Assembly: GCF_029323795.1 (NCBI RefSeq)
Contig: NZ_CP119758.1
Coordinates: forward strand, 4,588,001 to 4,652,000
From: Zobellia alginiliquefaciens
GTDB lineage: Bacteria; Bacteroidota; Bacteroidia; Flavobacteriales; Flavobacteriaceae
Reading direction: 5' to 3'
Length of the DNA stretch: 64,000 bases
The position numbers and the translations under genes are program-made. Shown here piece by piece: positions 3,738 to 34,506 of the stretch. A model generated the notes under the pieces. That model was given only the letters and a program-made list of their open reading frames with translations, had not been told where the DNA came from and made no database searches. Within the stretch, counting starts at the first letter, position 1; every line of letters starts with the position of its first letter.

Positions 3738-5057
3738 TTAGATTTTGATGGAATTTATGCTTTTACTAGCCTTCTTGAAGCCTATGAATAGTACACTAGA
3801 CACCAACAATAGTAATAAATACCACGTATTGCCAACCAAATCTAAATAGGTGATTTTTCCACTGGCAAAGCTCAAAATCATTAAAGCCTGGGCTCCGTAA
3901 GGCAACAGTCCTTGGGTTATACAGGCGTAAATATCTAAAATTGAGGCAGTTTGTTTGTTTTCTAAGGAGTATTCATCGGTAATGGATTTAGCAATGGGTC
4001 CAGAAATGATAATGGATACGGTATTGTTCGCAATTGCTGTATTGATACTCGATACTAAAGCTGCAATACCAAATTGAGCTGTTCTTTTACTTTTAATGAA
4101 TGTTTTGATCTTGGTAAGAATAAATTCAATTCCTCCGTTATATGTCACTAAAGCAGCTAAACCTCCTGTTAACAGGGATAATAAGAATATTTCGGTCATA
4201 TTCGTAAAACCGGTATAGACTATTCTCGTGAATTCGAGTATTGAGAAATCGCCATAAAGAACACCTAATATTCCAGCCGAGATCACACCCAATACCAAGG
4301 TAACAAATACATTGATACCAACTACGGATAAAATAATTACAATTAAATAGGGCGCTATTTTAAGAATGGAATAGGTGAAAGTTTCCATTTCCATGCCTTG
4401 GCTATTGAGTGATAAGCCTTGATAGATAAGAATAGCCATACTAACTATGGCCGCTGGTAACGCTATTTTTATGTTGGCTTTAAATTTATCGCTCATTTTA
4501 ACTTCTAGCGATTGGGTAGCGGCAATGGTCGTATCTGAAATTACGGAAAGGTTATCCCCAAACATTGCACCCCCCAACAATGCTCCACATAAAATAGATA
4601 ACGCAAAGTCTCCCGTATCTGCGAAACCGATAACAATTGGGGCCAATGCAACAATAGCACCCACGGAGGTTCCGGTAGAAATGGATAAAAAAGCGGCGAT
4701 AACGAATACGCCCACATAAATATACTCCTGACTAATAATATCCAATCCTAAATGAACAATAGCATCAACGCTACCCATAGCTTTGGTAATGGCGGCAAAG
4801 GCGCCCGCCAATAAATAAATTAGGCACATGGTGAGTATTTTATCGTCACCACATCCCTTTAGAAGAATACCTATTTTAGAATTCATGGGCTGCCTGAACA
4901 TCATGAATGCCACAAGGATTCCTGCAATTACCGCAATAGGAGCGGGGAGGGCATAAAAATCATTTTGATAGATACCCGCACCTAAAAAGACAGCAACAAA
5001 TACTAAAAATGGAAATAGTGCCTTGTAGTTTGCAACCACAGCCTTAACCTGAGTCAT
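3738..5057 (-). CDS. NhaC-family Na+/H+ antiporter
   Basis: A multi-spanning inner-membrane protein with about a dozen hydrophobic segments. It contains the polar intramembrane patches typical of NhaC transporters (STGTSVGAIVALAPI, GALLGGAMFGDNLSVISDTTIAAT, and INTAIANNTVSIIISGPIAK). Expected role: sodium export in exchange for protons, or exchange of a small organic ion. I place the start at the internal Met of MTQVKAVVANYKALFPFLVF (codon at 5055-5057), where family members usually begin. An upstream in-frame ATG at 5144 would add 29 residues with one extra hydrophobic stretch and cannot be excluded. It appears monocistronic. Confidence 0.87.
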   Translation of the reverse strand: MTQVKAVVANYKALFPFLVFVAVFLGAGIYQNDFYALPAPIAVIAGILVAFMMFRQPMNSKIGILLKGCGDDKILTMCLIYLLAGAFAAITKAMGSVDAIVHLGLDIISQEYIYVGVFVIAAFLSISTGTSVGAIVALAPIVIGFADTGDFALSILCGALLGGAMFGDNLSVISDTTIAATQSLEVKMSDKFKANIKIALPAAIVSMAILIYQGLSLNSQGMEMETFTYSILKIAPYLIVIILSVVGINVFVTLVLGVISAGILGVLYGDFSILEFTRIVYTGFTNMTEIFLLSLLTGGLAALVTYNGGIEFILTKIKTFIKSKRTAQFGIAALVSSINTAIANNTVSIIISGPIAKSITDEYSLENKQTASILDIYACITQGLLPYGAQALMILSFASGKITYLDLVGNTWYLLLLLVSSVLFIGFKKASKSINSIKI

Positions 5058-23746: not shown

Positions 23747-24718
23747 ATGTGGGTTTGGATACTTTTTATTGCTCTTATTATTGTTTTTCTCGCTCTAGAT
23801 TTGGGTGTGTTCAATAAAGATGAACACGTAATTAAAACTAAGGAAGCCGCTATCTGGACCTCTATTTGGGTTTCCGTGGCATTAGCCTTTAGTGGCGTTA
23901 TTTATTGGTTGTTCGCGGAAGGGCTTGTAGAAAATCCAACCAACCTAACACCCAATAACGCCGTACTTAAATATATTACGGGCTATCTTATAGAATTATC
24001 GTTGAGTATAGATAATGTTTTTGTTATTGCCGTTATTTTTTCCTCCTTTAAAATACCCGCGCTATACCAACACCGTGTGCTTTTCTGGGGTATTTTGGGA
24101 GCTATTGTTTTTAGGGGATTAATGATTTTGTTCGGTGTGGCACTTATCACCAAATTTGAATGGATCATTTATGTTTTTGGTGTGTTCTTGTTATGGACCG
24201 CCTATAAAATGCTTAAAAGTGATGAAGAAAACTTCGACCCAAAAAATTCTTGGATTTTTAGACAAATTCGAAAGGTATATCCCATTACATCCAACATTCA
24301 CGGGCATGATTTCTTCGTAAAGAAAAAAGGGCTGAACGCCGCTACTCCACTGTTTGTAGCCTTGGTGGTTATTGAATTGACAGATGTACTCTTCGCTTTA
24401 GATAGTATTCCCGCTATTTTGGCCATTACGGCTGACCCTTTTATAGTGTTTAGCTCCAATATCTTAGCTATTCTTGGACTACGGTCCATGTACTTTTTAA
24501 TTTCAAGGATGCTGGAAAAATTCCGTTATATCAATTATAGTCTGGTCGTCATTCTGGCCTTTGTAGGGCTTAAAATGTTGTTTTCCCATCAAGTGGAATT
24601 GCCGGAATGGTTGTCACTGGCGGTTATTTCAGTAGCGTTGGCGGCGGGTATAGCAGCTTCGTTGCTCATTCCTGAAAAGGAAAACAAAGATGAGTTGCCA
24701 CATATGGAAGATGAATAA
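23747..24718 (+). CDS. TerC/Alx family integral membrane protein
   Basis: A 323-residue membrane protein with about eight hydrophobic segments and the family's two intramembrane acidic signatures: LIELSLSIDNVFVIAVIF and VVIELTDVLFALDSIPAILA. Members of the family (Alx, TerC, MeeY) are linked to manganese export or metal loading of secreted proteins and to tellurite resistance. The length and the FEWIIYVFGVFLLWTAYKM segment are those of the Alx-like branch. No manganese riboswitch (yybP-ykoY type) could be recognised in the 99-bp leader. Confidence 0.93.
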   Translation: MWVWILFIALIIVFLALDLGVFNKDEHVIKTKEAAIWTSIWVSVALAFSGVIYWLFAEGLVENPTNLTPNNAVLKYITGYLIELSLSIDNVFVIAVIFSSFKIPALYQHRVLFWGILGAIVFRGLMILFGVALITKFEWIIYVFGVFLLWTAYKMLKSDEENFDPKNSWIFRQIRKVYPITSNIHGHDFFVKKKGLNAATPLFVALVVIELTDVLFALDSIPAILAITADPFIVFSSNILAILGLRSMYFLISRMLEKFRYINYSLVVILAFVGLKMLFSHQVELPEWLSLAVISVALAAGIAASLLIPEKENKDELPHMEDE

Positions 24719-24726
24719 ATTACCCG

Positions 24727-25161
24727 TTAATACCTCTGCAGAAATAACTTCTCATAGATTTTGTTCACGGTCCAGTTTCCCAACGGGAAGTACAGAGCGA
24801 AAAACAAGGCCATTCCCAAACTGAAATTCCGGATGCCAAAGGTTTGGTCCAAAAGGTTATTAGGGTATGCATAGGAAGTTTCAAAATAATAGCCTCCAAA
24901 TTCTAAGAACCCCATAGCAACCAGTCCGTATGCGTACTGGGTGTGAAAAGGAAGTTTTCGTAGCAAGAGCGATAGCGGTACCATGTATAAAATGTAACAG
25001 CTGATGACTTGCCACCAGTAGGTAAATTTGGCTATTTCCATGGTAGCTCCAAACCAATTCATTACCATGCCCCAAGTGAAATAAACAATGCAATAAACAG
25101 CGATTAACCTGCTATCTACAAATAACTTAGGTTTTGCCCAGTTCCAGAATTCGGTCCACAT
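24727..25161 (-). CDS. Small four-helix membrane protein at the end of the type III PKS cluster
   Basis: 144 residues with about four transmembrane segments (near residues 20-38, 48-66, 73-92 and 110-130). Charged or aromatic residues sit inside, for example VAMGFLEFGGYYFETSY and FGIRNFSLGMALFFALYFP. I do not recognise a family. The start overlaps the ACP stop by one base, so it belongs to the same transcript and is co-translated. It may be a membrane-bound tailoring enzyme or an anchor for the product. An integral-membrane cyclase-like role is possible but unsupported. Confidence 0.7.
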   Translation of the reverse strand: MWTEFWNWAKPKLFVDSRLIAVYCIVYFTWGMVMNWFGATMEIAKFTYWWQVISCYILYMVPLSLLLRKLPFHTQYAYGLVAMGFLEFGGYYFETSYAYPNNLLDQTFGIRNFSLGMALFFALYFPLGNWTVNKIYEKLFLQRY

Positions 25162-25415
25162 TACTTCGCTTCTAGTTTGGTATCAATAATGGTTAAGGCA
25201 TCTTGAACGGTTTTCATTTTTTCAATATCCTCGTTCTCCAAAAGAATATCAAACTCATCCTCCACATCTAGAACAATATCTACCAGATGTGCGGAATTTA
25301 TATTAAGCTCGGTTATAAGATTGCTATCCAAGGAAATTGCATCCACAGCTACATCTTCCGGTAAATACACCTTAATAATCTTTTTTAAAGTGTTGTACTT
25401 AGTGCTTTCATCCAT
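25161..25415 (-). CDS. Dedicated acyl carrier protein
   Basis: 84 residues, acidic, with the four-helix ACP pattern: LITELNINSAHLVDIVLDVEDEFDILLENEDIEKMKTV in two stretches around S41. S41 aligns with the phosphopantetheine Ser, but the usual D-S-L is N-S-A here. It should carry the growing acyl chain for the adjacent ketosynthase and hand it to the type III PKS. The stop overlaps the membrane-protein start, and the ketosynthase gene ends 17 bp upstream. Confidence 0.88.
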   Translation of the reverse strand: MDESTKYNTLKKIIKVYLPEDVAVDAISLDSNLITELNINSAHLVDIVLDVEDEFDILLENEDIEKMKTVQDALTIIDTKLEAK

Positions 25416-25432
25416 TTTGATTTCAGTCTTTT

Positions 25433-26707
25433 CTAATCCATATATCGTTTAAAAATAACACAAGCATTGACATCTCCAAAGCCAAAACTAGCCTTTGCCA
25501 AAATATGAGGCTTATGTGTTATCGTTTTTTGTGGAATACAGTCGGCATCTATTATTTCTGTAATTGTAGGATGTACATCCTCACAATTTATGTTACCGAA
25601 CACTTGTGATTTTTCAAACTGAAGTACCGCAGCAACACATTCAATGCTTCCCGCAGCGGATAAACAGTGTCCAAAAAGGCTCTTAAAAGAATTGATATAT
25701 GGAAAATCGGTGCCGGAACGTTTCAAGGCCGTGCTCCAATTTTCTATTTCCAATGCATCTTTAGAGGTTGCCGTCAAATGCCCGTTGATCACATCGATAT
25801 CCGAATTTTCAATCCCCGATTGCCGAACCGCTTGTGAAATACAACGTTGCACCGCTTCGCTATTGGGTGCGGTCATAGTACCATCTCCACGCTGTCCTCC
25901 ACTATTTATAGCGCCTCCTAAAACCTCCGCATAAATTTTGGCGTTACGTGCCCGAGCGCTTTCCAGAGATTCCAAAACCAGTGCCCCTGCCCCACTTCCC
26001 GGAACAAACCCTGCTGCCGAAGCACTCATGGGCCTGCTTGCCGCTTCCGGATTATCATTGTAATTCCTAGGAAGAATTCGCATGGCATCAAAACCGGACC
26101 ACACATATGGGCCACTATCACTACAACTGCCCACCAACATACGTTCTGCTTGGCCATTTGCAATTCGCTCATACCCCATAAGAACACCTTCTGTTCCCGT
26201 GGTACAGGCCGAAGAATTGGTCGTCACTTGATTTCCACACCCTAAAATACCTCCTAAATACGCACTTACGCCACTCGCCATGGTTTGAATAACCGTAGTA
26301 CTGCCCAAACGACGGACTTTCTTTGCATCTACCAAATGTATGGCCTCATAGAACTTATCTACCCCTAAAGTGCCGGAACCAAAGAGAATACCGCTATCCC
26401 AATCCGGTTTTTCTTGACCGGCTTTGGGTAGCCCAGCATCATTCCACGCATCGGTACCCGCCATTACGCCGTACATTATTCCAGTTGCTGAAAGACCCCG
26501 TAACTGCAAGGGCGTAAAATAAGGTGCTAGAATTTCATCGGTCAACTCAGGTTTCCCTGCAATTTGACAGCCGAATTCAAATTCTTTCAACTGCGGTTGA
26601 AACTGAATGCCACTTTTGCCCTGCGCCATGGCATCGGCAAAATTAGTTCGACCAATTCCGTTAGGAGCACAAACACCCATTCCCGTAATTACAACTCGTT
26701 TACGCAT
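25433..26707 (-). CDS. Beta-ketoacyl-ACP synthase (FabF-like) of the type III PKS cluster
   Basis: From MRKRVVITGMGVCAPNG (start at 26707) the product is 424 residues, the usual FabF length. Catalytic Cys168 lies in NSSACTTGTEG, His310 in NGHLTATSKD, Lys342 and His347 in FKSLFGHCLSAAGS, so the Cys-His-His triad is complete. NGHLTAT replaces the common EAHGTGT, which marks a diverged, pathway-specific branch. It should elongate an acyl-ACP with malonyl-ACP. The start overlaps the 3' end of the dehydratase gene by 8 bp, which indicates translational coupling. In-frame Mets up to 11 codons earlier lie inside the dehydratase gene and are less likely. Confidence 0.9.
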   Translation of the reverse strand: MRKRVVITGMGVCAPNGIGRTNFADAMAQGKSGIQFQPQLKEFEFGCQIAGKPELTDEILAPYFTPLQLRGLSATGIMYGVMAGTDAWNDAGLPKAGQEKPDWDSGILFGSGTLGVDKFYEAIHLVDAKKVRRLGSTTVIQTMASGVSAYLGGILGCGNQVTTNSSACTTGTEGVLMGYERIANGQAERMLVGSCSDSGPYVWSGFDAMRILPRNYNDNPEAASRPMSASAAGFVPGSGAGALVLESLESARARNAKIYAEVLGGAINSGGQRGDGTMTAPNSEAVQRCISQAVRQSGIENSDIDVINGHLTATSKDALEIENWSTALKRSGTDFPYINSFKSLFGHCLSAAGSIECVAAVLQFEKSQVFGNINCEDVHPTITEIIDADCIPQKTITHKPHILAKASFGFGDVNACVIFKRYMD

Positions 26708-27152
26708 TTGCATCACTTTTAAACATTCCTGAAATTTCACCCTTACATACCAATTCCCCTTTGGAGTTATGCATTTTTACCGCACATTTTAACTTATTGA
26801 ATCGGAAATAAATTTTCTTGGAGGTCACCGTTACTTTTTCGTCCGGTTGTACTGGCAGCAAGAAATCCATCTGAGAACTGCTCATACCGATTTGCATGTT
26901 ATTTACAGTAAAACCACCCTCTTCAGTCAGCAAATAGATACCCAAACATACCACACCAATCTGCGCGCAACATTCCGTCAACAGCACCCCAGGCGTTACC
27001 GGAGCCCCCTTAAAATGCCCCCTGTAAAAATCCGAATCTTCGGAAAACAAATACGTACCAACCACCCCATCGCTATTCACCTCAAGCAGGTCGTCAACAA
27101 ACAAGAACGGAGGGCCGTACGGTAATTGATTTATAAGTTCTGTTTTCGTCAT
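26700..27152 (-). CDS. FabZ-like hotdog 3-hydroxyacyl-ACP dehydratase
   Basis: 150 residues. PYGPPFLFVDDLLEV, then GHFKGAPVTPGVLLTECCAQ, is the FabZ/FabA hotdog signature, with catalytic His46 and Glu60 in place. The C-terminal half continues the fold (SSSQMDFLLPVQPDEKVTV, then CKGEISGMF). It should dehydrate 3-hydroxyacyl-ACP to the enoyl form. The 157 bp upstream, before the SDR gene, carry a three-unit repeat, so expression may be partly uncoupled from the SDR and PKS genes. Confidence 0.9.
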   Translation of the reverse strand: MTKTELINQLPYGPPFLFVDDLLEVNSDGVVGTYLFSEDSDFYRGHFKGAPVTPGVLLTECCAQIGVVCLGIYLLTEEGGFTVNNMQIGMSSSQMDFLLPVQPDEKVTVTSKKIYFRFNKLKCAVKMHNSKGELVCKGEISGMFKSDANA

Positions 27153-27226
27153 TTTATAAATATTTTGTGTTAAGTCATATTACGCAGCGCGCAATCACAG
27201 GCACAAATCTCATAACCCCTTCACAG

Positions 27227-27311
27227 ACCCTTCTTGAGCGCAGTCACACCAAACCCTTCCTGAGCGCAGTCCCACACAAACCCTTCCTGAGCGCAGTCGA
27301 AGGAAGGGTTT
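27227..27311. repeat. Three-unit REP-like array ending in a hairpin
   Basis: Units ACCCTTC(T/C)TGAGCGCAGTC start at 27227, 27253 and 27280, a period of 26-27 bp. The last runs into a hairpin AAACCCTTCC (27278-27287) with GGAAGGGTTT (27302-27311) that touches the SDR stop codon. The unit resembles the CTTCGACTGCGCTCAGG-type repeats common in bacterial intergenic DNA. Confidence 0.75.
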
Positions 27312-28089
27312 AACGCAAACTCTCCCCACCATCCACTTTTATCACCGTACCCGTAATCCATTTGGCCTCATCGGTACTTAGTAAATAGACCGTATTGGCT
27401 ACATCTTCTGGGGTTGTTAATCGTTTATTCGGGTTTCGCTCTAAAGCCTTTTTCTTTAAGTCTTTGCTATTAGGAATTATCTGAAATGCTTTTGTATCCG
27501 TGGTTCCCGCTTGTATACAATTAGCCTTAATCCCTTTTGAAGCGTATTCTAGTGCAATACTTCGGGTGAGCGCTTCCAACGTTGCCTTAGCTGCGGAAAC
27601 AGCTGCGTAACCCTCCCAGGCTCTACTGCTACCTTCACTGGTAAAAGCCACTACGCGCGCATCCTCATCAAATAAATTTTGCTCATATATTTCCTTCACC
27701 CAATCATAAAAGCTTAATGCCATGGCGTTTAAGGTGATTTCTATGTCTTGATGGTTTAAGGTGGTTTCCTCATTGGAAACCATAGGTTTGAGGCTGCCTT
27801 TGGCGATGCTATGGACCATCATTTTTATTTTTCCCGAATTTGTTAAAGTCGTTTTTATTTCTTCAATGGTTTGTTTCCTTTTATCCGAATTGGCAGCGTC
27901 TATATTGAAACTCAACAATTGCACTCCTGTTAAAGTGATTTCTTTAAAATGGGTGTTAATCTCTTCTAAATCAGACCTCCTATCTCTATGTATAATTATG
28001 AGATGATATCCGTGACGCGCCATTTTTTTAGCGGTTGCCAAACCTAGTCCGCTGCTCCCTCCAAGAATAAGTGCCCACTGTTTTTTCAT
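27310..28089 (-). CDS. SDR oxidoreductase with enoyl-ACP-reductase spacing (FabL/FabI-like)
   Basis: A 259-residue Rossmann protein with GGSSGLGLATA (nucleotide loop, 10-20), MMVHSIAKGSLKPM (90-103), and C-terminal IKVDGGESL. The catalytic Tyr161 and Lys168 are spaced Y-x6-K, the hallmark of enoyl-ACP reductases (FabI, FabL), whereas ketoreductases have Y-x3-K. The stretch TDTKAFQIIPNSKDLKKKAL also parallels the substrate loop I remember in FabL. I therefore favour an enoyl reductase that saturates the acyl chain. A ketoreductase role is second choice. It lies 22 bp downstream of the type III PKS gene in the same operon. Confidence 0.85.
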   Translation of the reverse strand: MKKQWALILGGSSGLGLATAKKMARHGYHLIIIHRDRRSDLEEINTHFKEITLTGVQLLSFNIDAANSDKRKQTIEEIKTTLTNSGKIKMMVHSIAKGSLKPMVSNEETTLNHQDIEITLNAMALSFYDWVKEIYEQNLFDEDARVVAFTSEGSSRAWEGYAAVSAAKATLEALTRSIALEYASKGIKANCIQAGTTDTKAFQIIPNSKDLKKKALERNPNKRLTTPEDVANTVYLLSTDEAKWITGTVIKVDGGESLR

Positions 28090-28111
28090 ACTATTTTACC
28101 ACTTCCATATG

Positions 28112-29167
28112 TTACCATTCTAATAAAACCCTTTGGGCAGAGAAACCCGGACCAAAACTTAGAATAAGGCCCTGCTCTCCCTTTTTAATATCTTTTTCCA
28201 TAAAACGCTCCAATACATAGAGCACGGTTGCACTACTCATGTTCCCATACTGGCGTAACACTTCGCGGGTGTCATCTATATTTTTTCCCATTTCGCCAAA
28301 AAGGGACTCCACGGTTTGGACAATTTTTTTTCCACCAGGGTGAAAAATCAAATGGTCCACCATTTCTATGGAAGAATTATGTTTGTCCAAAAAAGGGTGT
28401 ACAATATTGGGGAAATGTGCTGATATAGTTTCAGGCACGGAAATATCCAGTATCATTTTAAGACCGTGGTTGGTTAAATCGAAACCCATCATATGTGTAC
28501 TATCCGTAAAGTGATACATTTCCGAGCCTTTTATCATAGGGCCTTCCGCATTTTCTTCCGAAGATAAAAGAACACAGGAAGCACCATCACCAAAAATGGC
28601 AGCACTAACCATATTGGCCATGGAAAAATCATTGAGTTGAAATGTAGCAGTGGGACTTTCTACGGCTACTACCACCGCTCTTTTTCCTGGATTGGATTTT
28701 AAGAAGTTATGCGCATAAATCAACCCGGAAACGCCGGCCGCACAGCCCATTTCCGTAACCGGAAGCCGTACTACATCTTGCCGTAACCCTAAATCATTGA
28801 TCAAATAAGCATCCAAAGAAGGAATTAGAATTCCTGTGCAACTAACGGTAATGATAAAATCTATGGAATCTGCTTGCCAATTACTTTGAATTAAGGCTTT
28901 TTCTAAAACCTGTTTTCCTAGTTTCTTGACTTCCCGTGCATAAATAACATTTTTCTCTTCAAAGGAGGTGGCTATAAAGACCTCTTCGGGCGCCATAATG
29001 CTGTAGCGCTTGTCTACGGCGGCACCTTCAAATATCTTGATAACCTTACGCCTAAAGCGATCCTCTTGGCCAGAAAGCCACAAGTTCACAAACGGCAAAA
29101 TTTCATTCGTCGGTTTGCAATAGGCTGGTAATTGCTTCACCGTTTTTATGATTCGAACTTCATTCAT
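28112..29167 (-). CDS. Type III polyketide synthase (chalcone/stilbene synthase superfamily)
   Basis: From MNEVRIIKTVKQLP (start at 29167) the protein is 351 residues. Catalytic Cys142 in TEMGCAAGVSGL, His276 in IFHPGGKKIV and Asn309 in YGNMSSATV form the complete triad, and ILSFGPGF near the C-terminus is the GFGPG-type loop. It should condense an acyl starter with several malonyl-CoA units and cyclise to a pyrone, resorcinol or phloroglucinol. The start lies 4 bp past the methyltransferase stop; an ATG at 29197 would overlap that gene by 26 bp and adds atypical residues. Neighbouring ACP, KS, DH and ENR suggest a special long acyl starter. Confidence 0.93.
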   Translation of the reverse strand: MNEVRIIKTVKQLPAYCKPTNEILPFVNLWLSGQEDRFRRKVIKIFEGAAVDKRYSIMAPEEVFIATSFEEKNVIYAREVKKLGKQVLEKALIQSNWQADSIDFIITVSCTGILIPSLDAYLINDLGLRQDVVRLPVTEMGCAAGVSGLIYAHNFLKSNPGKRAVVVAVESPTATFQLNDFSMANMVSAAIFGDGASCVLLSSEENAEGPMIKGSEMYHFTDSTHMMGFDLTNHGLKMILDISVPETISAHFPNIVHPFLDKHNSSIEMVDHLIFHPGGKKIVQTVESLFGEMGKNIDDTREVLRQYGNMSSATVLYVLERFMEKDIKKGEQGLILSFGPGFSAQRVLLEW

Positions 29168-29171
29168 ATAC

Positions 29172-29888
29172 TTAAATCGGGAGTTTTTGTTCGGCAACCC
29201 ATATGTATCTAAAAGCCCATTTCCATTGAATCGTATGCTTCATATCCGGTAGTTTATCAGAAAAACCTGTTAAGTCCTCTTTGCTAAATCCACTTTTTAT
29301 GGAAATAAGGCCATCTTTTTTGGCAATATCGGTTCGTATAAAAATAGTACTAAAGAGTTTAAAAAGATGATAAGCCATGGTGCTTCTGTGTAAATCGTTA
29401 ATAATAAATCCGATTCGGCTCAAATTCGAAAATTGATTCAAGAATTGCGGAATCTGCTCATTCCGGAAATGGTGCATTGTAAGAGTACATAGAAGGATAT
29501 CGCACTTTAACTTGTCTGGAGTTAGTTGTAAAATATCTTGTTTCCAGTACTGGATTTCAGGATAATTTTGTGAATCTTCACGTGCTATCTCCAAACTTTT
29601 TTCGTTTAGGTCAACGCCTATACAGGAAACGCTAATGTTTTGCTTCCGTGCCCATAAAACTACTGCCCTAAGCATACTTCCGTTGCCACACCCCATATCT
29701 AAAATCGTATATGATTTGTGATTTTTACCAGAAATAAGTCGACTTATCGCTTGAATGGTGAGATGGTTCCCGTTCAAAAAACGATTGGAACGATCAATAT
29801 CCAACAATACCTGTTTAAGATGCGTTTCATCCAATGACAAGTCGTCCATTAATTCGGGTTCGGTACTTCGTATTGAAAAATCGCTCAT
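29172..29888 (-). CDS. SAM-dependent methyltransferase (class I)
   Basis: 238 residues. The SAM-binding motif I is TILDMGCGNGSML (residues about 61-73), followed by CIGVDLNEKSLEIAR (motif II) and CDILLCTLTMHHF (motif IV). The C-terminal part (FIINDLHRSTMAYHLFKLFS) resembles methyltransferases of aromatic and quinone-type products, including those that accompany type III PKS genes. It probably methylates an oxygen or carbon of the polyketide ring. The start overlaps the stop of the FAD enzyme gene by 4 bp (ATGA), and the PKS starts 4 bp after its stop. Confidence 0.88.
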   Translation of the reverse strand: MSDFSIRSTEPELMDDLSLDETHLKQVLLDIDRSNRFLNGNHLTIQAISRLISGKNHKSYTILDMGCGNGSMLRAVVLWARKQNISVSCIGVDLNEKSLEIAREDSQNYPEIQYWKQDILQLTPDKLKCDILLCTLTMHHFRNEQIPQFLNQFSNLSRIGFIINDLHRSTMAYHLFKLFSTIFIRTDIAKKDGLISIKSGFSKEDLTGFSDKLPDMKHTIQWKWAFRYIWVAEQKLPI

Positions 29889-31012
29889 TCGTTTATAGGT
29901 TTCCCGTGGGTATTTTTAATCAGTTGTTTTAAAAGCCATGGTTGTCTTGCAACGAGTGAAATTCCGAAGGCGGACCAACTAGGGTGAAGCAACAGAGACT
30001 GCAATTGTCTGCCAAACCACAAGCGCCTTTTAAAGGTACGATTCCATTTTTTTATGTACCCCTGCTCCATATCTTTTCGGTTCATTTTATCTCCAGATAA
30101 AAAAGCATCTATATATTCCGAGGCTATTTTAGCGCTATGAATGGCCATCGCCATACCGTTTCCACAAAGAGGGTGAATTAAACCAGCTGTGTCTCCGCAC
30201 ATAATGACGTGGTCTTTTATAGGAGCCTTAGCTTCAAAAGACACTTGCGCTATGGTCAAAGGGGAATCAAATAATGGTTCTGCGCGGGAGAGAAAATCTT
30301 TTAGAATTGGATTTTCTTGAACTACATTCCTGTGAAATCGTTCAACGTCTTTTTCCTTTTGAAAACTTTGATAGGACGCTAGATAACAAAAATTAACCGC
30401 TCCCGATTCCGTTTTTGATAGTCCACCATACCCCCCTTTAAAATTATGGAGACCTACTTCACGGTCTGGAAAGTCTGCCAAGCGGTAATGACTCTTTACA
30501 GCCAGCCAAGACGATTTCTCCTTGATAAAACTACGGTTCAACTGCTTGTCTAGCACACTTCGCTTGCCATAAGCACCAATGACTATGCTTGAAGTATACT
30601 TTCGATTATCGATTGTAACTACCTTAAAAACAGTATTTTTATATTCAATAGAATTTACACTGTCAAAAATAAAGTCCACTCCTGATTCCACCGCTTTCTC
30701 ATACAGCAGATAATCAAAGGCATACCGACTAATGCCTGTTCCTCCAAGCGGTAATTCAGTCTTTAGACCACTTCCCTTAACCGTCGAAAACCGTAGCGTA
30801 GTGATTGGGACAGCTCCAGACTTGTCTAAGTTTACTCCTAATTTTTTTAAATATGGGAGCACTTCATTGGATACATATTCGCCACAAACTTTATGGTGCG
30901 GGTATGTGTTTTTTTCAAAGACCAAAACCCTATGCCCAGTCTTTGATAAATGGATAGCCGCCGTTAAGCCTGCCAATCCACCTCCTACAATGATAACCTC
31001 ATATTGCTCCAC
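29885..31012 (-). CDS. FAD-dependent oxidoreductase/monooxygenase (geranylgeranyl-reductase-like group)
   Basis: 375 residues. VIIVGGGLAGLTAAI (residues about 7-20) is the FAD dinucleotide fold, FEKNTYPHHKVCGEYVS the following ribose and substrate segment, and VIMCGDTAGLIHPLCGNGMA the second FAD motif. The family includes flavin monooxygenases and geranylgeranyl reductases; here oxidation of the polyketide ring is most likely. The start is GTG at 31012; no in-frame ATG serves the FAD fold. It is the first gene of an eight-gene, one-direction cluster (31012 to 24727) with short gaps or overlaps except for the repeat array. Confidence 0.88.
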   Translation of the reverse strand: MEQYEVIIVGGGLAGLTAAIHLSKTGHRVLVFEKNTYPHHKVCGEYVSNEVLPYLKKLGVNLDKSGAVPITTLRFSTVKGSGLKTELPLGGTGISRYAFDYLLYEKAVESGVDFIFDSVNSIEYKNTVFKVVTIDNRKYTSSIVIGAYGKRSVLDKQLNRSFIKEKSSWLAVKSHYRLADFPDREVGLHNFKGGYGGLSKTESGAVNFCYLASYQSFQKEKDVERFHRNVVQENPILKDFLSRAEPLFDSPLTIAQVSFEAKAPIKDHVIMCGDTAGLIHPLCGNGMAMAIHSAKIASEYIDAFLSGDKMNRKDMEQGYIKKWNRTFKRRLWFGRQLQSLLLHPSWSAFGISLVARQPWLLKQLIKNTHGKPINE

Positions 31013-31098: not shown

Positions 31099-31794
31099 TT
31101 ATCCTTTTACTTGTTGCTTTGCTTCTTGCTTTAATGCTTCACTGGCTACAATTGCCAATTCTACCCTTCTGTTTTTAGCTTTACCTTCCGTAGTAGTATT
31201 ATCACCTACAGGCTGAGATTCGCCGTACCATCTTGTCTCCAATCGGCTTTTGTCAATGCCTTGAGAAATTAAATAGTCAGTTACAGAAGTAGCTCTTTGT
31301 TTTGATAAGTTCATATTATACTCATCAGGTCCAGCACTATCCGTATGACCTTCTACAAGTACATTAGATTTTGGATAATCTTTTAAGATTTGAGCCATAC
31401 TATTCAATGTGGTTTGAGAAGTACCTTTTACATCGGATTTATTAGTATCAAAATAAACACCTGCATCTTCGTTAAACGTAACATTGATACCTTCACCAAC
31501 CCTACTTACTTCTGCACCCGGAATCTCTTCCTCAATACGCTCTGCCTGACGATCCATGCGATCTCCGATATATCCACCAGCGACACCGCCAATAGCGGCA
31601 CCAAGGATTGCACCTAATACCGTATTATTACCACTTCCAACATTGTTTCCGATTACACCACCAATAGCAGCACCGCTACCAGCACCTATTACGGCACCTT
31701 TTTGTTTGTTATTGGCATTTTGCACCGTTTTACAACCTACAACCATGGTCATGGCCATGATGATATATATTGATTTTAAAGCTATTTTTTTCAT
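31099..31794 (-). CDS. OmpA-family lipoprotein with glycine zipper
   Basis: 231 residues. Lipobox VVGC (Cys21). Residues about 33-80 are a glycine-zipper segment (GAVIGAGSGAAIGGVIG, GAILGAAIGGVAGGYIG) that may insert in a membrane. The C-terminal domain (about 105-215) is an OmpA-like peptidoglycan-binding domain: VYFDTNKSDVK, VLVEGHTDSAGPDEYN, LSKQRATSVTDYL, and KAKNRRVELAI with the conserved Asp and Arg that hold diaminopimelate. It should tether the outer membrane to the cell wall. An 11-bp gap to the lipocalin-like gene upstream shows a two-gene operon. Confidence 0.93.
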   Translation of the reverse strand: MKKIALKSIYIIMAMTMVVGCKTVQNANNKQKGAVIGAGSGAAIGGVIGNNVGSGNNTVLGAILGAAIGGVAGGYIGDRMDRQAERIEEEIPGAEVSRVGEGINVTFNEDAGVYFDTNKSDVKGTSQTTLNSMAQILKDYPKSNVLVEGHTDSAGPDEYNMNLSKQRATSVTDYLISQGIDKSRLETRWYGESQPVGDNTTTEGKAKNRRVELAIVASEALKQEAKQQVKG

Positions 31795-32430: not shown

Positions 32431-34407
32431 CTAATAAGCAAGAAGTTCCTTAAGTGCAAAAATGAATCTTTCTTTAGGTAAATAATTATTTTCTAACTTT
32501 TTTGAAAAAGGAATTGGCGTTTCCATACTAGCTACACGTTTAACAGGTCCGTCTAAATATTGGAATCTATTTTCCATGACCAAGGCAGAAATATCACTGG
32601 CAATACCCCCGAACATACTGTCCTCTTGAAGAATGATAAGTTTCCCCGTTTTTTCTACCGATTTATAAACGGACGCTATATCCAAAGGAGCCAATGTGCG
32701 CAAGTCAATAAGGTCTGCTGAAATATCCGGATGTTTCTCTAACGTGTCCAAAGCCCAATGCACTCCTGCTCCATAAGAAACAATAGTTATATCCTGCCCT
32801 TCCTTCAATAAAGCCGCTTTCCCGAAAGGAAGTGTATAATAATCGGCAGGTATATTTTGGTAAACAATGCGGTACAAAGCTTTGTGCTCAAAGAACAGAA
32901 CCGGATTTGGATCATTGATGGCAGTAGCCAGTAACCCCTTCGCATCATACGGAAAAGCAGGGTAGGCTACTTTGAGCCCTGGGGTTTTGGTGAACCACGC
33001 TTCATTGGTTTGGGAATGAAAAGGGCCTGCGCCCACATCGCCCCCGCAGGGCATGCGAATTACAACATCTGCTTTTTCGTTCCAACGGTAATGAGATTTA
33101 GCAAGGTAGTTGACTACGGGATTGAACCCGCTACTCACAAAATCCGCAAACTGCATTTCCACCACGGCTTTCATTCCTTTGATCGACAATCCCATAGCGG
33201 TCGAAACAATCCCCGATTCACAGATAGGTGTATTTCGCACGCGCTCCTTTCCGAAAGCATCCATAAACCCTTCCGTAATTTTGAAAACTCCACCGTAATC
33301 CGCTATATCCTGCCCCATGATTACCAGATCGGGATGTTTTTCCATGGATTGCCGTAATCCTTTTGAGATAGCATCTACCAACCTAATATGTTCAACAACA
33401 CTTCCTGGTTGAATCTCAATATATTCAAAAGGTGCGTATACATCCAAAATCTCTTGATCCATATTCGGTTCAACTTCAGGTTCGTCAAAGGCCCATTTTA
33501 AATTATAATTAATTTCCTCTTCAATTTCAGCCCTAAGGGCTTCAATCTTTTCTACGGATATCATATTAGCTTCTAGAAGTTGTTTTTCATAATTAGAAAT
33601 AGGGTCCTTCTCCGCCCATTCGGCCATCAGTTCATCTGGAACATATTTAGTACCGCTTGCTTCCTCATGACCACGCATTCGAAACGTTTGAAATTCAATT
33701 AAAACCGGACGTGGATTTTCCCGTAAATCTTCAGCAATCTCCTTCACCTTGGTGTATACCCCTATGATATCGTTACCATAAATCGTATACGATTCAATTC
33801 CATACCCCAAACCTCTATCCGCTAGATTCTCACAGTTATACTGTTCTTTTGTTGGCGTAGAGAGGCCATATCCGTTGTTTTCAATACAAAAAATAACAGG
33901 CAGGTCCCATACGGATGCAATGTTTAAAGCCTCATGAAAATCCCCTTCACTAGTACCACCTTCTCCTGTAAAAACAGCGGTAACCGCATTTCTATTTTGA
34001 AGTTTTTCGGCTAAAGCAATACCGTCGGCCACACCTAATTGTGGACCAAGGTGACTGATCATTCCTATAATTTTATATTCTTTAGTGCCGAAGTGAAAAC
34101 TACGGTCCCTACCTTTTGTAAAACCGTTCATTTTACCTTGCCATTGAGAAAATAATCGGTTTAAAGGAATACCACGTGTAGTAAATACTCCTAAATTCCG
34201 ATGCATGGGCAAAATATACTCATCATCGTTCAAAGCGTTCGTCACCCCTACAGAAATAGCCTCTTGACCAATACCACTAAACCATTTGGAGATTTTTCCC
34301 TGACGTAAAAGAATCAACATCTTTTCTTCAATCATCCTAGGACGTAGAAGGTCTTTATAGAGTTTTAGTGAAACAGTTTCGTCTATATTCTTTTTATCGT
34401 TTTGCAT
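32431..34407 (-). CDS. 2-oxoacid dehydrogenase E1, fused alpha and beta subunits
   Basis: From MQNDKKNIDETVSLKLYKD (start at 34407) the protein is 658 residues. The alpha half has LRQGKISKWFSGIGQEAISV, a thiamine diphosphate motif with GEGGTSEGDFHEALN in place of GDG, and ENNGYGLSTP. The beta half (from about residue 330) has VIMGQDIADYGGVFKITEGF, TPICESGIVSTAMGLSIKGM, and a C-terminal transketolase domain (QDITIVSYGAGVHWAL). Fused E1 of this type serves branched-chain 2-oxoacid (or pyruvate-like) oxidation, with E2 and E3 encoded elsewhere. An ATG at 34461 would add 18 residues and is unlikely. It is divergent to the dioxygenase gene. Confidence 0.92.
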   Translation of the reverse strand: MQNDKKNIDETVSLKLYKDLLRPRMIEEKMLILLRQGKISKWFSGIGQEAISVGVTNALNDDEYILPMHRNLGVFTTRGIPLNRLFSQWQGKMNGFTKGRDRSFHFGTKEYKIIGMISHLGPQLGVADGIALAEKLQNRNAVTAVFTGEGGTSEGDFHEALNIASVWDLPVIFCIENNGYGLSTPTKEQYNCENLADRGLGYGIESYTIYGNDIIGVYTKVKEIAEDLRENPRPVLIEFQTFRMRGHEEASGTKYVPDELMAEWAEKDPISNYEKQLLEANMISVEKIEALRAEIEEEINYNLKWAFDEPEVEPNMDQEILDVYAPFEYIEIQPGSVVEHIRLVDAISKGLRQSMEKHPDLVIMGQDIADYGGVFKITEGFMDAFGKERVRNTPICESGIVSTAMGLSIKGMKAVVEMQFADFVSSGFNPVVNYLAKSHYRWNEKADVVIRMPCGGDVGAGPFHSQTNEAWFTKTPGLKVAYPAFPYDAKGLLATAINDPNPVLFFEHKALYRIVYQNIPADYYTLPFGKAALLKEGQDITIVSYGAGVHWALDTLEKHPDISADLIDLRTLAPLDIASVYKSVEKTGKLIILQEDSMFGGIASDISALVMENRFQYLDGPVKRVASMETPIPFSKKLENNYLPKERFIFALKELLAY

Positions 34408-34449
34408 AAAGTTTCGGGGATGTGTTTCCAATTCGGTAGATAAAAGTAG

Positions 34450-34457
34450 CAAAAATA
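34450..34457 (-). promoter_or_regulatory. Putative -7 box of the E1 gene
   Basis: Reverse-strand TATTTTTG matches TAnnTTTG and sits 43-50 bp upstream of the start at 34407. Confidence 0.35.
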
Positions 34458-34506
34458 CCACATCCGACGCCGTCTTTGTTACATATTAAAGTTGAGTAGA
34501 TTTTAC

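Follow-up and report, generated by a model that had tools for sequence, protein, structure and literature searches.

The stretch of DNA analyzed here (the window) comprises 64,000 nucleotides (nt) of contig NZ_CP119758.1 of Zobellia alginiliquefaciens, whose genome is 5.07 Mb long and lies on one contig. It contains an operon built around a type III polyketide synthase (T3PKS). Eight open reading frames (ORFs), all on the minus strand, run from 31012 to 24727 of the window and encode, in this order, a flavoprotein, a methyltransferase (MT), the T3PKS, an enoyl reductase (ER), a dehydratase (DH), a ketosynthase (KS), an acyl carrier protein (ACP) and a membrane protein. An earlier note, made from the sequence alone, had described eight same-strand genes with overlaps or short gaps, and the ORFs confirm this. 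The genes of the flavin adenine dinucleotide (FAD) enzyme and the MT overlap by 4 nt, the T3PKS ATG (29167) lies 4 nt past the MT stop (an upstream TTG start at 29197 is possible), T3PKS and ER are spaced by 22 nt, DH and KS overlap by 8 nt if the KS starts at 26707, and the ACP and membrane protein genes share 1 nt. A gap of notable size, 157 nt, occurs only between ER and DH and is filled in part by a 26-nt tandem repeat of 2.9 copies (27222..27298, no strand), which we do not think functional. A promoter and terminator scan of the operon gave signal near the level of shuffled sequence. Domains were assigned by Pfam and NCBIfam profile searches of the window proteins, with Pfam matches for T3PKS, KS, FabA/Z-like, short-chain dehydrogenase/reductase (SDR)/enoyl-ACP reductase, PP-binding, methyltransferase and FAD enzyme.

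The T3PKS (351 aa; 28112..29167, minus strand) matches Pfam Chal_sti_synt_N and Chal_sti_synt_C above cut-off, and its triad C142/H276/N309 is present in all 146 clade rows of our alignment, which include some genomes twice. Its closest named relatives come from Zobellia amurskyensis (91%) and Z. barbeyronii (89%), among the best 80 of 96 relatives. The closest solved relative is Pks11 (181 bits), deposited in the PDB under a title on alpha-pyrone synthesis, followed by 1u0m and CylI. Directly upstream is a predicted S-adenosylmethionine (SAM) methyltransferase of 238 aa (29172..29888, minus strand; Pfam Methyltransf_25), for which the best NCBIfam profile, PRK06202, scores 138 bits, under its cut-off of 243. 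The first gene (29885..31012, minus strand) encodes a 375-aa FAD-dependent oxidoreductase of the flavin monooxygenase/GG-reductase superfamily (Pfam FAD_binding_3), with an NCBIfam GG-red-SF match under cut-off. The folds nearest to its structural model (pLDDT 88.8) are flavin halogenases (Bmp2, TM 0.77), and then aromatic hydroxylases (3-hydroxybenzoate 6-hydroxylase, 0.71-0.73). Flavin halogenases carry an active-site Lys that we take to lie near residue 75; across 80 sequences we found no near-invariant Lys at residues 44-149, and with no conserved Lys at that assumed place we rejected a halogenase assignment made on fold alone. The last gene (24727..25161, minus strand) is an ORF for a 144-aa protein with four predicted membrane helices. 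The window's protein has no Pfam or NCBIfam match, with scattered weak Pfam matches in a few relatives, and its model (pLDDT 83.6) matched no PDB fold at E <= 0.001. Among 35 sequences its mean column identity is 63%, and in 35/35 the gene lies less than 400 nt from the ACP.

The remaining four genes form a cassette for acyl-chain building. The ER (259 aa; 27310..28089, minus strand) had been called an SDR in the earlier note; its type is corrected here to an enoyl-reductase SDR. Its best solved relative is 3oic, named an enoyl-ACP reductase and presumably FabL of B. subtilis (115 bits versus 85 for the next). Moreover, Y161-x6-K168 is near-invariant in 75 sequences, and Y-x6-K is the signature pair of enoyl reductases. 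The best NCBIfam profile is FabL at 169 bits, under the curated cut-off of 328, hence we call the protein only FabL-like. A ketoreductase was ruled out, given that Y-x3-K is missing and the best relatives are enoyl reductases. The set therefore has no ketoreductase, and ketoreduction must come from elsewhere. The DH (150 aa; 26700..27152, minus strand) is a FabZ-like 3-hydroxyacyl-ACP dehydratase (Pfam FabA; NCBIfam FabZ under cut-off) with H46 and E60 near-invariant in 79 sequences. The FabF-like KS (about 424 aa; 25433..26707, minus strand) is taken to start at the ATG at 26707, its longest ORF at a GTG at 26740. It scores 255 bits with NCBIfam fabF (TIGR03150), far under the cut-off of 493.75, so it is not a FabF equivalog. 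Its C166/H308/K340/H345 are near-invariant in 74 sequences (numbered from 26701), and it is 31% identical to the genome's own FabF. The ACP (84 aa; 25161..25415, minus strand; Pfam PP-binding) has an N-S-A motif (N40/S41/A42), invariant in 19 sequences, around the phosphopantetheine Ser41; the usual ACP motif is D-S-L. The statement of the earlier note that all catalytic triads are intact thus holds for the T3PKS, KS, DH, ER and the ACP serine, which are also conserved, and does not apply to the MT and FAD enzymes, which have no triad.

A separate primary fatty acid synthase (FAS) is encoded elsewhere in the genome, with FabF (600 bits, cut-off 494), AcpP (138, cut-off 92) and FabG (339, cut-off 298), along with a FabI-like protein below cut-offs and a 476-aa frame with a FabZ domain. 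The proteins above cut-off rule out that the cassette is the cell's only FAS; judged by its predicted gene content, the operon supplies the genome with an additional KS, DH, ER and ACP, and with no ketoreductase. Two phosphopantetheinyl transferase (PPTase) genes are present in the genome, both away from the operon. Two other regions of this genome also hold carrier proteins. At 1.466-1.503 Mb several KS, two ACPs, a FabA-family dehydratase and a PPTase lie close together, probably a flexirubin or aryl polyene locus; at 4.01-4.02 Mb two carrier domains in frames of about 1350 aa accompany a PPTase, perhaps a nonribosomal peptide synthetase.

We then find the operon widely conserved in the family. 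Our family sample comprises 199 genomes, with a T3PKS match threshold of E <= 1e-20 and the clade defined by identity >= 58%. T3PKS matches occur in 64 genomes, 63 of them in the clade and one (G072) at 35%. The KS (E <= 1e-100) is present in 62 of the 63 T3PKS-clade genomes and in 0/136 others; a Fisher p of 2.5e-51 ignores the kinship of genomes and is not readable as a probability. One internal stop interrupts 4/62 KS matches here and 1/38 in the phylum sample described below. Operon layout was counted in 60 of the 63 clade genomes, on fetched sequence of 13-17 kb per locus (6 kb in one), setting aside tblastn pieces under 45% query cover. The cover limit was 40% for tblastn pieces at the split, T3PKS-free and out-of-family loci and for BLASTP pieces at the cassette loci without this T3PKS. 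FAD enzyme, MT and T3PKS are adjacent in 60/60 loci. All seven core genes, from FAD enzyme to ACP, stand in order in 47, and the same set minus ER in 8. Of the five others, two (G190 and G144) retain DH-KS-ACP at a separate locus, one operon runs on into another contig (G066), one has no detected DH (G118), and the last, G138, is taken up below. The three clade genomes outside the 60 are the window's own and two (G191 and G150) with all seven genes in order, the T3PKS of G150 having matched as two pieces. The gene-neighborhood check proposed in the earlier note thus bears out a shared order, although for seven genes and not for the eight it had named: the membrane protein is found in just 16/60 family loci (and 35/80 named loci).

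In 18/60 loci a PPTase-type ORF begins no more than 10 nt from the ACP end, abutting or overlapping it; the one member tested matches Pfam ACPS at 66 bits. In six loci (L068, L069, L076, L081, L083 and L084) a second gene, 19-24% similar to the T3PKS, precedes the FAD gene; it may be a ketoacyl-ACP synthase III (KAS III). Pairwise distances of T3PKS and KS correlate with rho 0.86, the highest of the gene pairs compared. As the value is only somewhat above the 0.80 between KS and a neighboring dehydrogenase E1 gene, it argues only weakly for coevolution over and above shared descent. Order and co-occurrence are far beyond chance, and the operon is real, old and widespread.

The site is marked by its neighbors. 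An OmpA-family protein (31099..31794, minus strand) and a convergent TerC-family membrane protein (23747..24718, plus strand), both assigned by Pfam, bound the operon and are not part of the pathway; further upstream lies a fused 2-oxoacid dehydrogenase E1 gene (32431-34461; Pfam E1_dh and transketolase domains). The E1 gene is an upstream neighbor of the operon in 42/60 family loci. If of the branched-chain type, it could furnish primers for iso-fatty acids. OmpA is upstream of the operon in 39/60 loci, and 23/60 have TerC downstream on the fetched sequence; because these genes flank the operon its site looks ancestral. Among 16 genomes without T3PKS, the upstream E1 gene was found in 13, and these 13 stretches were fetched: four keep a lipoprotein and OmpA after E1, and the other nine show no such order. 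In one stretch (L242) the site is empty: TerC comes next after OmpA, and their stop codons lie 53 nt apart. In another (L249), with neither T3PKS nor KS, an ER-like gene (56%; 4187-4948) after OmpA is alone of the queried operon genes, a possible relic of a lost operon.

Beyond the family, the block also occurs in three genomes from other families, its T3PKS 69-73% identical. A PPTase accompanies it there, and ER is missing from two of the three; this occurrence suggests transfer as a unit. Two Pedobacter loci (among the best 80 of 96 relatives) have the same ER-less set. A phylum sample of 395 genomes has the T3PKS clade in 33, other T3PKS being at most 38% identical among the matches listed. 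The KS (E <= 1e-70) was detected in 33/33 of these clade genomes, and in five further genomes at 47-54%. In two of these five, from other families (L264:7779-14107 and L265:8158-14332), an ER-DH-KS-ACP-PPTase cassette, in divergent arrangement, lies near DarB (635 and 615 bits; cut-off 550). The PPTase match in these cassettes is weak, at 24.9 and 33.1 bits with Pfam ACPS (cut-off 25), and a gene near DarB in both is presumably DarA-like, its L264 copy having no Pfam match. DarB belongs to the KAS III type rather than to the type III PKSs and builds the ring by another route. The other three of the five (L266:8600-13746, L267:6825-11186 and L268:7609-11856) have DH-KS-ACP next to genes for GNAT-like proteins and family-2 glycosyltransferases, and L266 has ER as well. 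A BioF/Kbl/serine palmitoyltransferase-like gene is found about 4 kb off in L266, and these three loci possibly direct an unusual membrane lipid.

The earlier note had called the acyl-building set private to the T3PKS. We reject a strictly private cassette, as homologues without this T3PKS stand beside DarB or glycosyltransferase genes in 5/395 phylum genomes; as far as homology can tell, the cassette is a portable acyl-chain module. Because a homologous cassette adjoins another resorcinol-forming enzyme (DarB), its role as an acyl-chain supplier is supported. Near T3PKS of 29-37% identity, ER, DH, KS and ACP were found in none of the 17 fetched Bacteroidota loci (ORF picks for L126, L131 and some more, apparently in wrong frames, were left out). 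Two neighbors tested at those loci are ICMT-type methyltransferases, which with the T3PKS we take to be a Bacillus-like pyrone pair.

We propose, with about even confidence, that this is an ancestral, largely vertically inherited operon whose T3PKS is fed by acyl-ACP and makes an alkylresorcinol; methylation and hydroxylation of this product would follow, perhaps as far as a quinone. KS, DH, ER and ACP would elongate an acyl chain on the dedicated ACP, while the primary FAS lends ketoreduction and malonyl loading. The T3PKS would accept the acyl-ACP starter, add malonyl units and form a 5-alkylresorcinol (or resorcylic acid) through ring closure by aldol condensation. The MT would then methylate the ring and the flavoprotein hydroxylate or oxidize it, leading towards an alkyl hydroquinone or quinone that carries the methyl group. 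Where the membrane protein is present, it may act on or move the lipid. What the sequences show is the gene content, intact active sites, a conserved order, the co-occurrence and a homologous cassette next to DarB; from these we infer each chemical step, the acyl-ACP substrate, resorcinol over pyrone and the quinone end product. The proposal is supported by the shared gene order and KS co-occurrence, by the two genomes, G190 and G144, that keep DH-KS-ACP even at a separate locus, by the out-of-family copies of the block, the PPTase ORFs at the ACP end, the cassettes beside DarB and the T3PKS-KS distance correlation, by the acyl-ACP use reported for other T3PKS, and by the published FAD/MT/T3PKS trios (planctomycete, hierridin, pkqA-C), which give resorcinols or quinones. 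The analysis thus yields a concrete pathway model for the operon.

The choice of ring centers on residue 229 of the T3PKS, which is Phe in 146/146 clade rows, Trp in 17/18 and Tyr in 1/18 other Bacteroidota rows, and Trp in Pks11. We equate it with W281 of ArsB by alignment to Pks11, since Pks11 and others keep the ArsB-type Trp (PMC5916927; here and below, literature is quoted from parts of the cited papers). In ArsB this Trp decides for resorcinol over pyrone, and changing the position shifts the ring type (PMC6274091). CylI, a resorcinol maker, aligns Leu here, so the residue alone does not decide the ring type. Phe252 of the fungal synthase ORAS occupies, we assume, the same position as the cyclization Trp. 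Its change to Gly moves products from resorcinol to pyrone (PMC8086630). From the alignments, Phe229 would be an experimental handle, not a verdict on ring type.

Several points weigh against the proposed pathway. One is this residue itself: Phe stands where the named resorcinol formers have Trp, and a Tyr at the aligned position has been linked to triketide pyrones in M. marinum (PMC5916927). The T3PKS is only distantly related to characterized enzymes, Pks11 at 181 bits being the best PDB match. The operon has neither ketoreductase nor acyltransferase, and the ER is dispensable, because it is missing in 8/60 family loci and 2/3 out-of-family genomes with no close copy elsewhere (other SDR matches in these ten genomes are at most 33%). 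G138 is a T3PKS-clade genome without a detected KS, and with no DH-KS-ACP near the T3PKS. By its profile and modeled fold, the flavoprotein could instead be a reductase of the GG-reductase family or halogenase-like. In planctomycetes the role of the FAD enzyme was left open, no alkylquinone arose in the heterologous host, and a T3PKS deletion grew normally (PMC10896814). The planctomycete and HidABC operons are given with the MT before the oxidoreductase, while in the window FAD comes before MT.

The same module could serve a T3PKS that lactonizes, giving a methylated alkylpyrone whose chain or ring the flavoprotein hydroxylates. Pks11 as the best solved relative, deposited under alpha-pyrone synthesis, and a Phe in place of the Trp whose change shifts the ring type in ArsB both favor such a pyrone, which we consider possible if somewhat doubtful. 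The residue nevertheless stays aromatic in all 146 rows, the other Bacteroidota T3PKS (two with ICMT-type methyltransferases) have no ER/DH/KS/ACP cassette in any of the 17 loci, and the trios described in the papers cited here yield resorcinols.

The cassette itself could have another purpose. It might make a special acyl chain for envelope lipids, the T3PKS using ordinary acyl-CoA and the linkage being regulatory only; the five of 395 genomes with cassette homologues and without this T3PKS, three beside glycosyltransferase and GNAT-like genes, fit that view. We judge it unlikely, however, because within the family sample the KS is never present without the T3PKS (0/136), it is retained where the locus is split, and two of the five other cassette settings are again resorcinol loci. 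Still less probable, in our estimate, is that the cassette builds short polyenes, as happens at aryl polyene or flexirubin loci, and leaves an unsaturated chain where ER is lost. antiSMASH labeled a related Aequorivita cluster, whose T3PKS is 69% Zobellia-like and which has no product, as 'T3pks-arylpolyene' (PMC6139392), and ER is indeed absent in 8/60 loci. Against a polyene stand the FabL-like ER in 52/60 loci and the KS, which is just 28% identical to the KS at the 1.486-Mb locus.

In line with the earlier note, which gave no assigned product for related clusters, we found none for this gene order in the open-licence literature, and the parts of PMC10942906 and PMC12565237 consulted hold nothing on the window operon. 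T3PKS clusters, all T3PKS clades pooled, make up 10.74% (PMC10734526) or 9% (PMC7440613) of Flavobacteriaceae biosynthetic gene clusters. More speculatively, and with considerable doubt, Flavobacteriaceae may make a second lipoquinone in addition to menaquinone. It would be a polyketide quinone with a tail made by the type II cassette and passed as acyl-ACP to the Phe-type T3PKS. The T3PKS is about as conserved as the neighboring E1 (mean pairwise identity 0.75 and 0.74), which on this reading suggests a function in the membrane or in respiration more than a secondary metabolite for a niche. Should the product prove to be a quinone, the range of polyketide quinones, which PMC9927152 describes from Actinobacteria, would extend to Bacteroidota.

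Among known systems, the planctomycete operon and hierridin HidABC are alike, by description, in that the T3PKS gene is immediately preceded by those of an MT and a FAD-oxidoreductase. In planctomycetes these two genes precede the T3PKS in 58/96 cases; of six T3PKS tested, four, all from operons, gave alkylresorcinols and two without an operon gave no product, and co-expression of MT and FAD enzyme added one methyl, probably on carbon (PMC10896814). A term search of that paper returned no mention of ketosynthase, dehydratase or enoyl. For HidC a C14 acyl-ACP starter has been proposed (PMC8086630). The pkqA-C/srs trio of mycobacteria and Streptomyces makes polyketide quinones, which are alternate electron carriers in mycobacteria, and phenolic lipids (PMC9927152, PMC5916927). 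The trio of enzyme types is shared, again by description, and adjacent, conserved T3PKS, MT and flavin oxidoreductase genes of this pkq/srs/hid type were found in 60/60 family loci. Those three-gene operons, however, are described without a FAS cassette, their T3PKS comes first and not third, and their cyclization residue is Trp where the window clade has Phe. Acyl-ACP is accepted by ArsB/ArsC, SCO7671 and GCS, and in the Azotobacter ars system a dedicated FAS passes chains bound to ACP domains to alkylresorcinol and alkylpyrone synthases (PMC6274091), although that synthase is of type I and the window has separate type II enzymes. The DarA/DarB dialkylresorcinol and flexirubin loci are alike in the homologous ER-DH-KS-ACP-PPTase cassette beside DarB (L264 and L265), so that a portable acyl-ACP cassette would be common to two different resorcinol routes. 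By analogy, then, the operon would work as a trio of the pkq/hid type that receives its acyl chains from a type II counterpart of the Azotobacter ars synthase.

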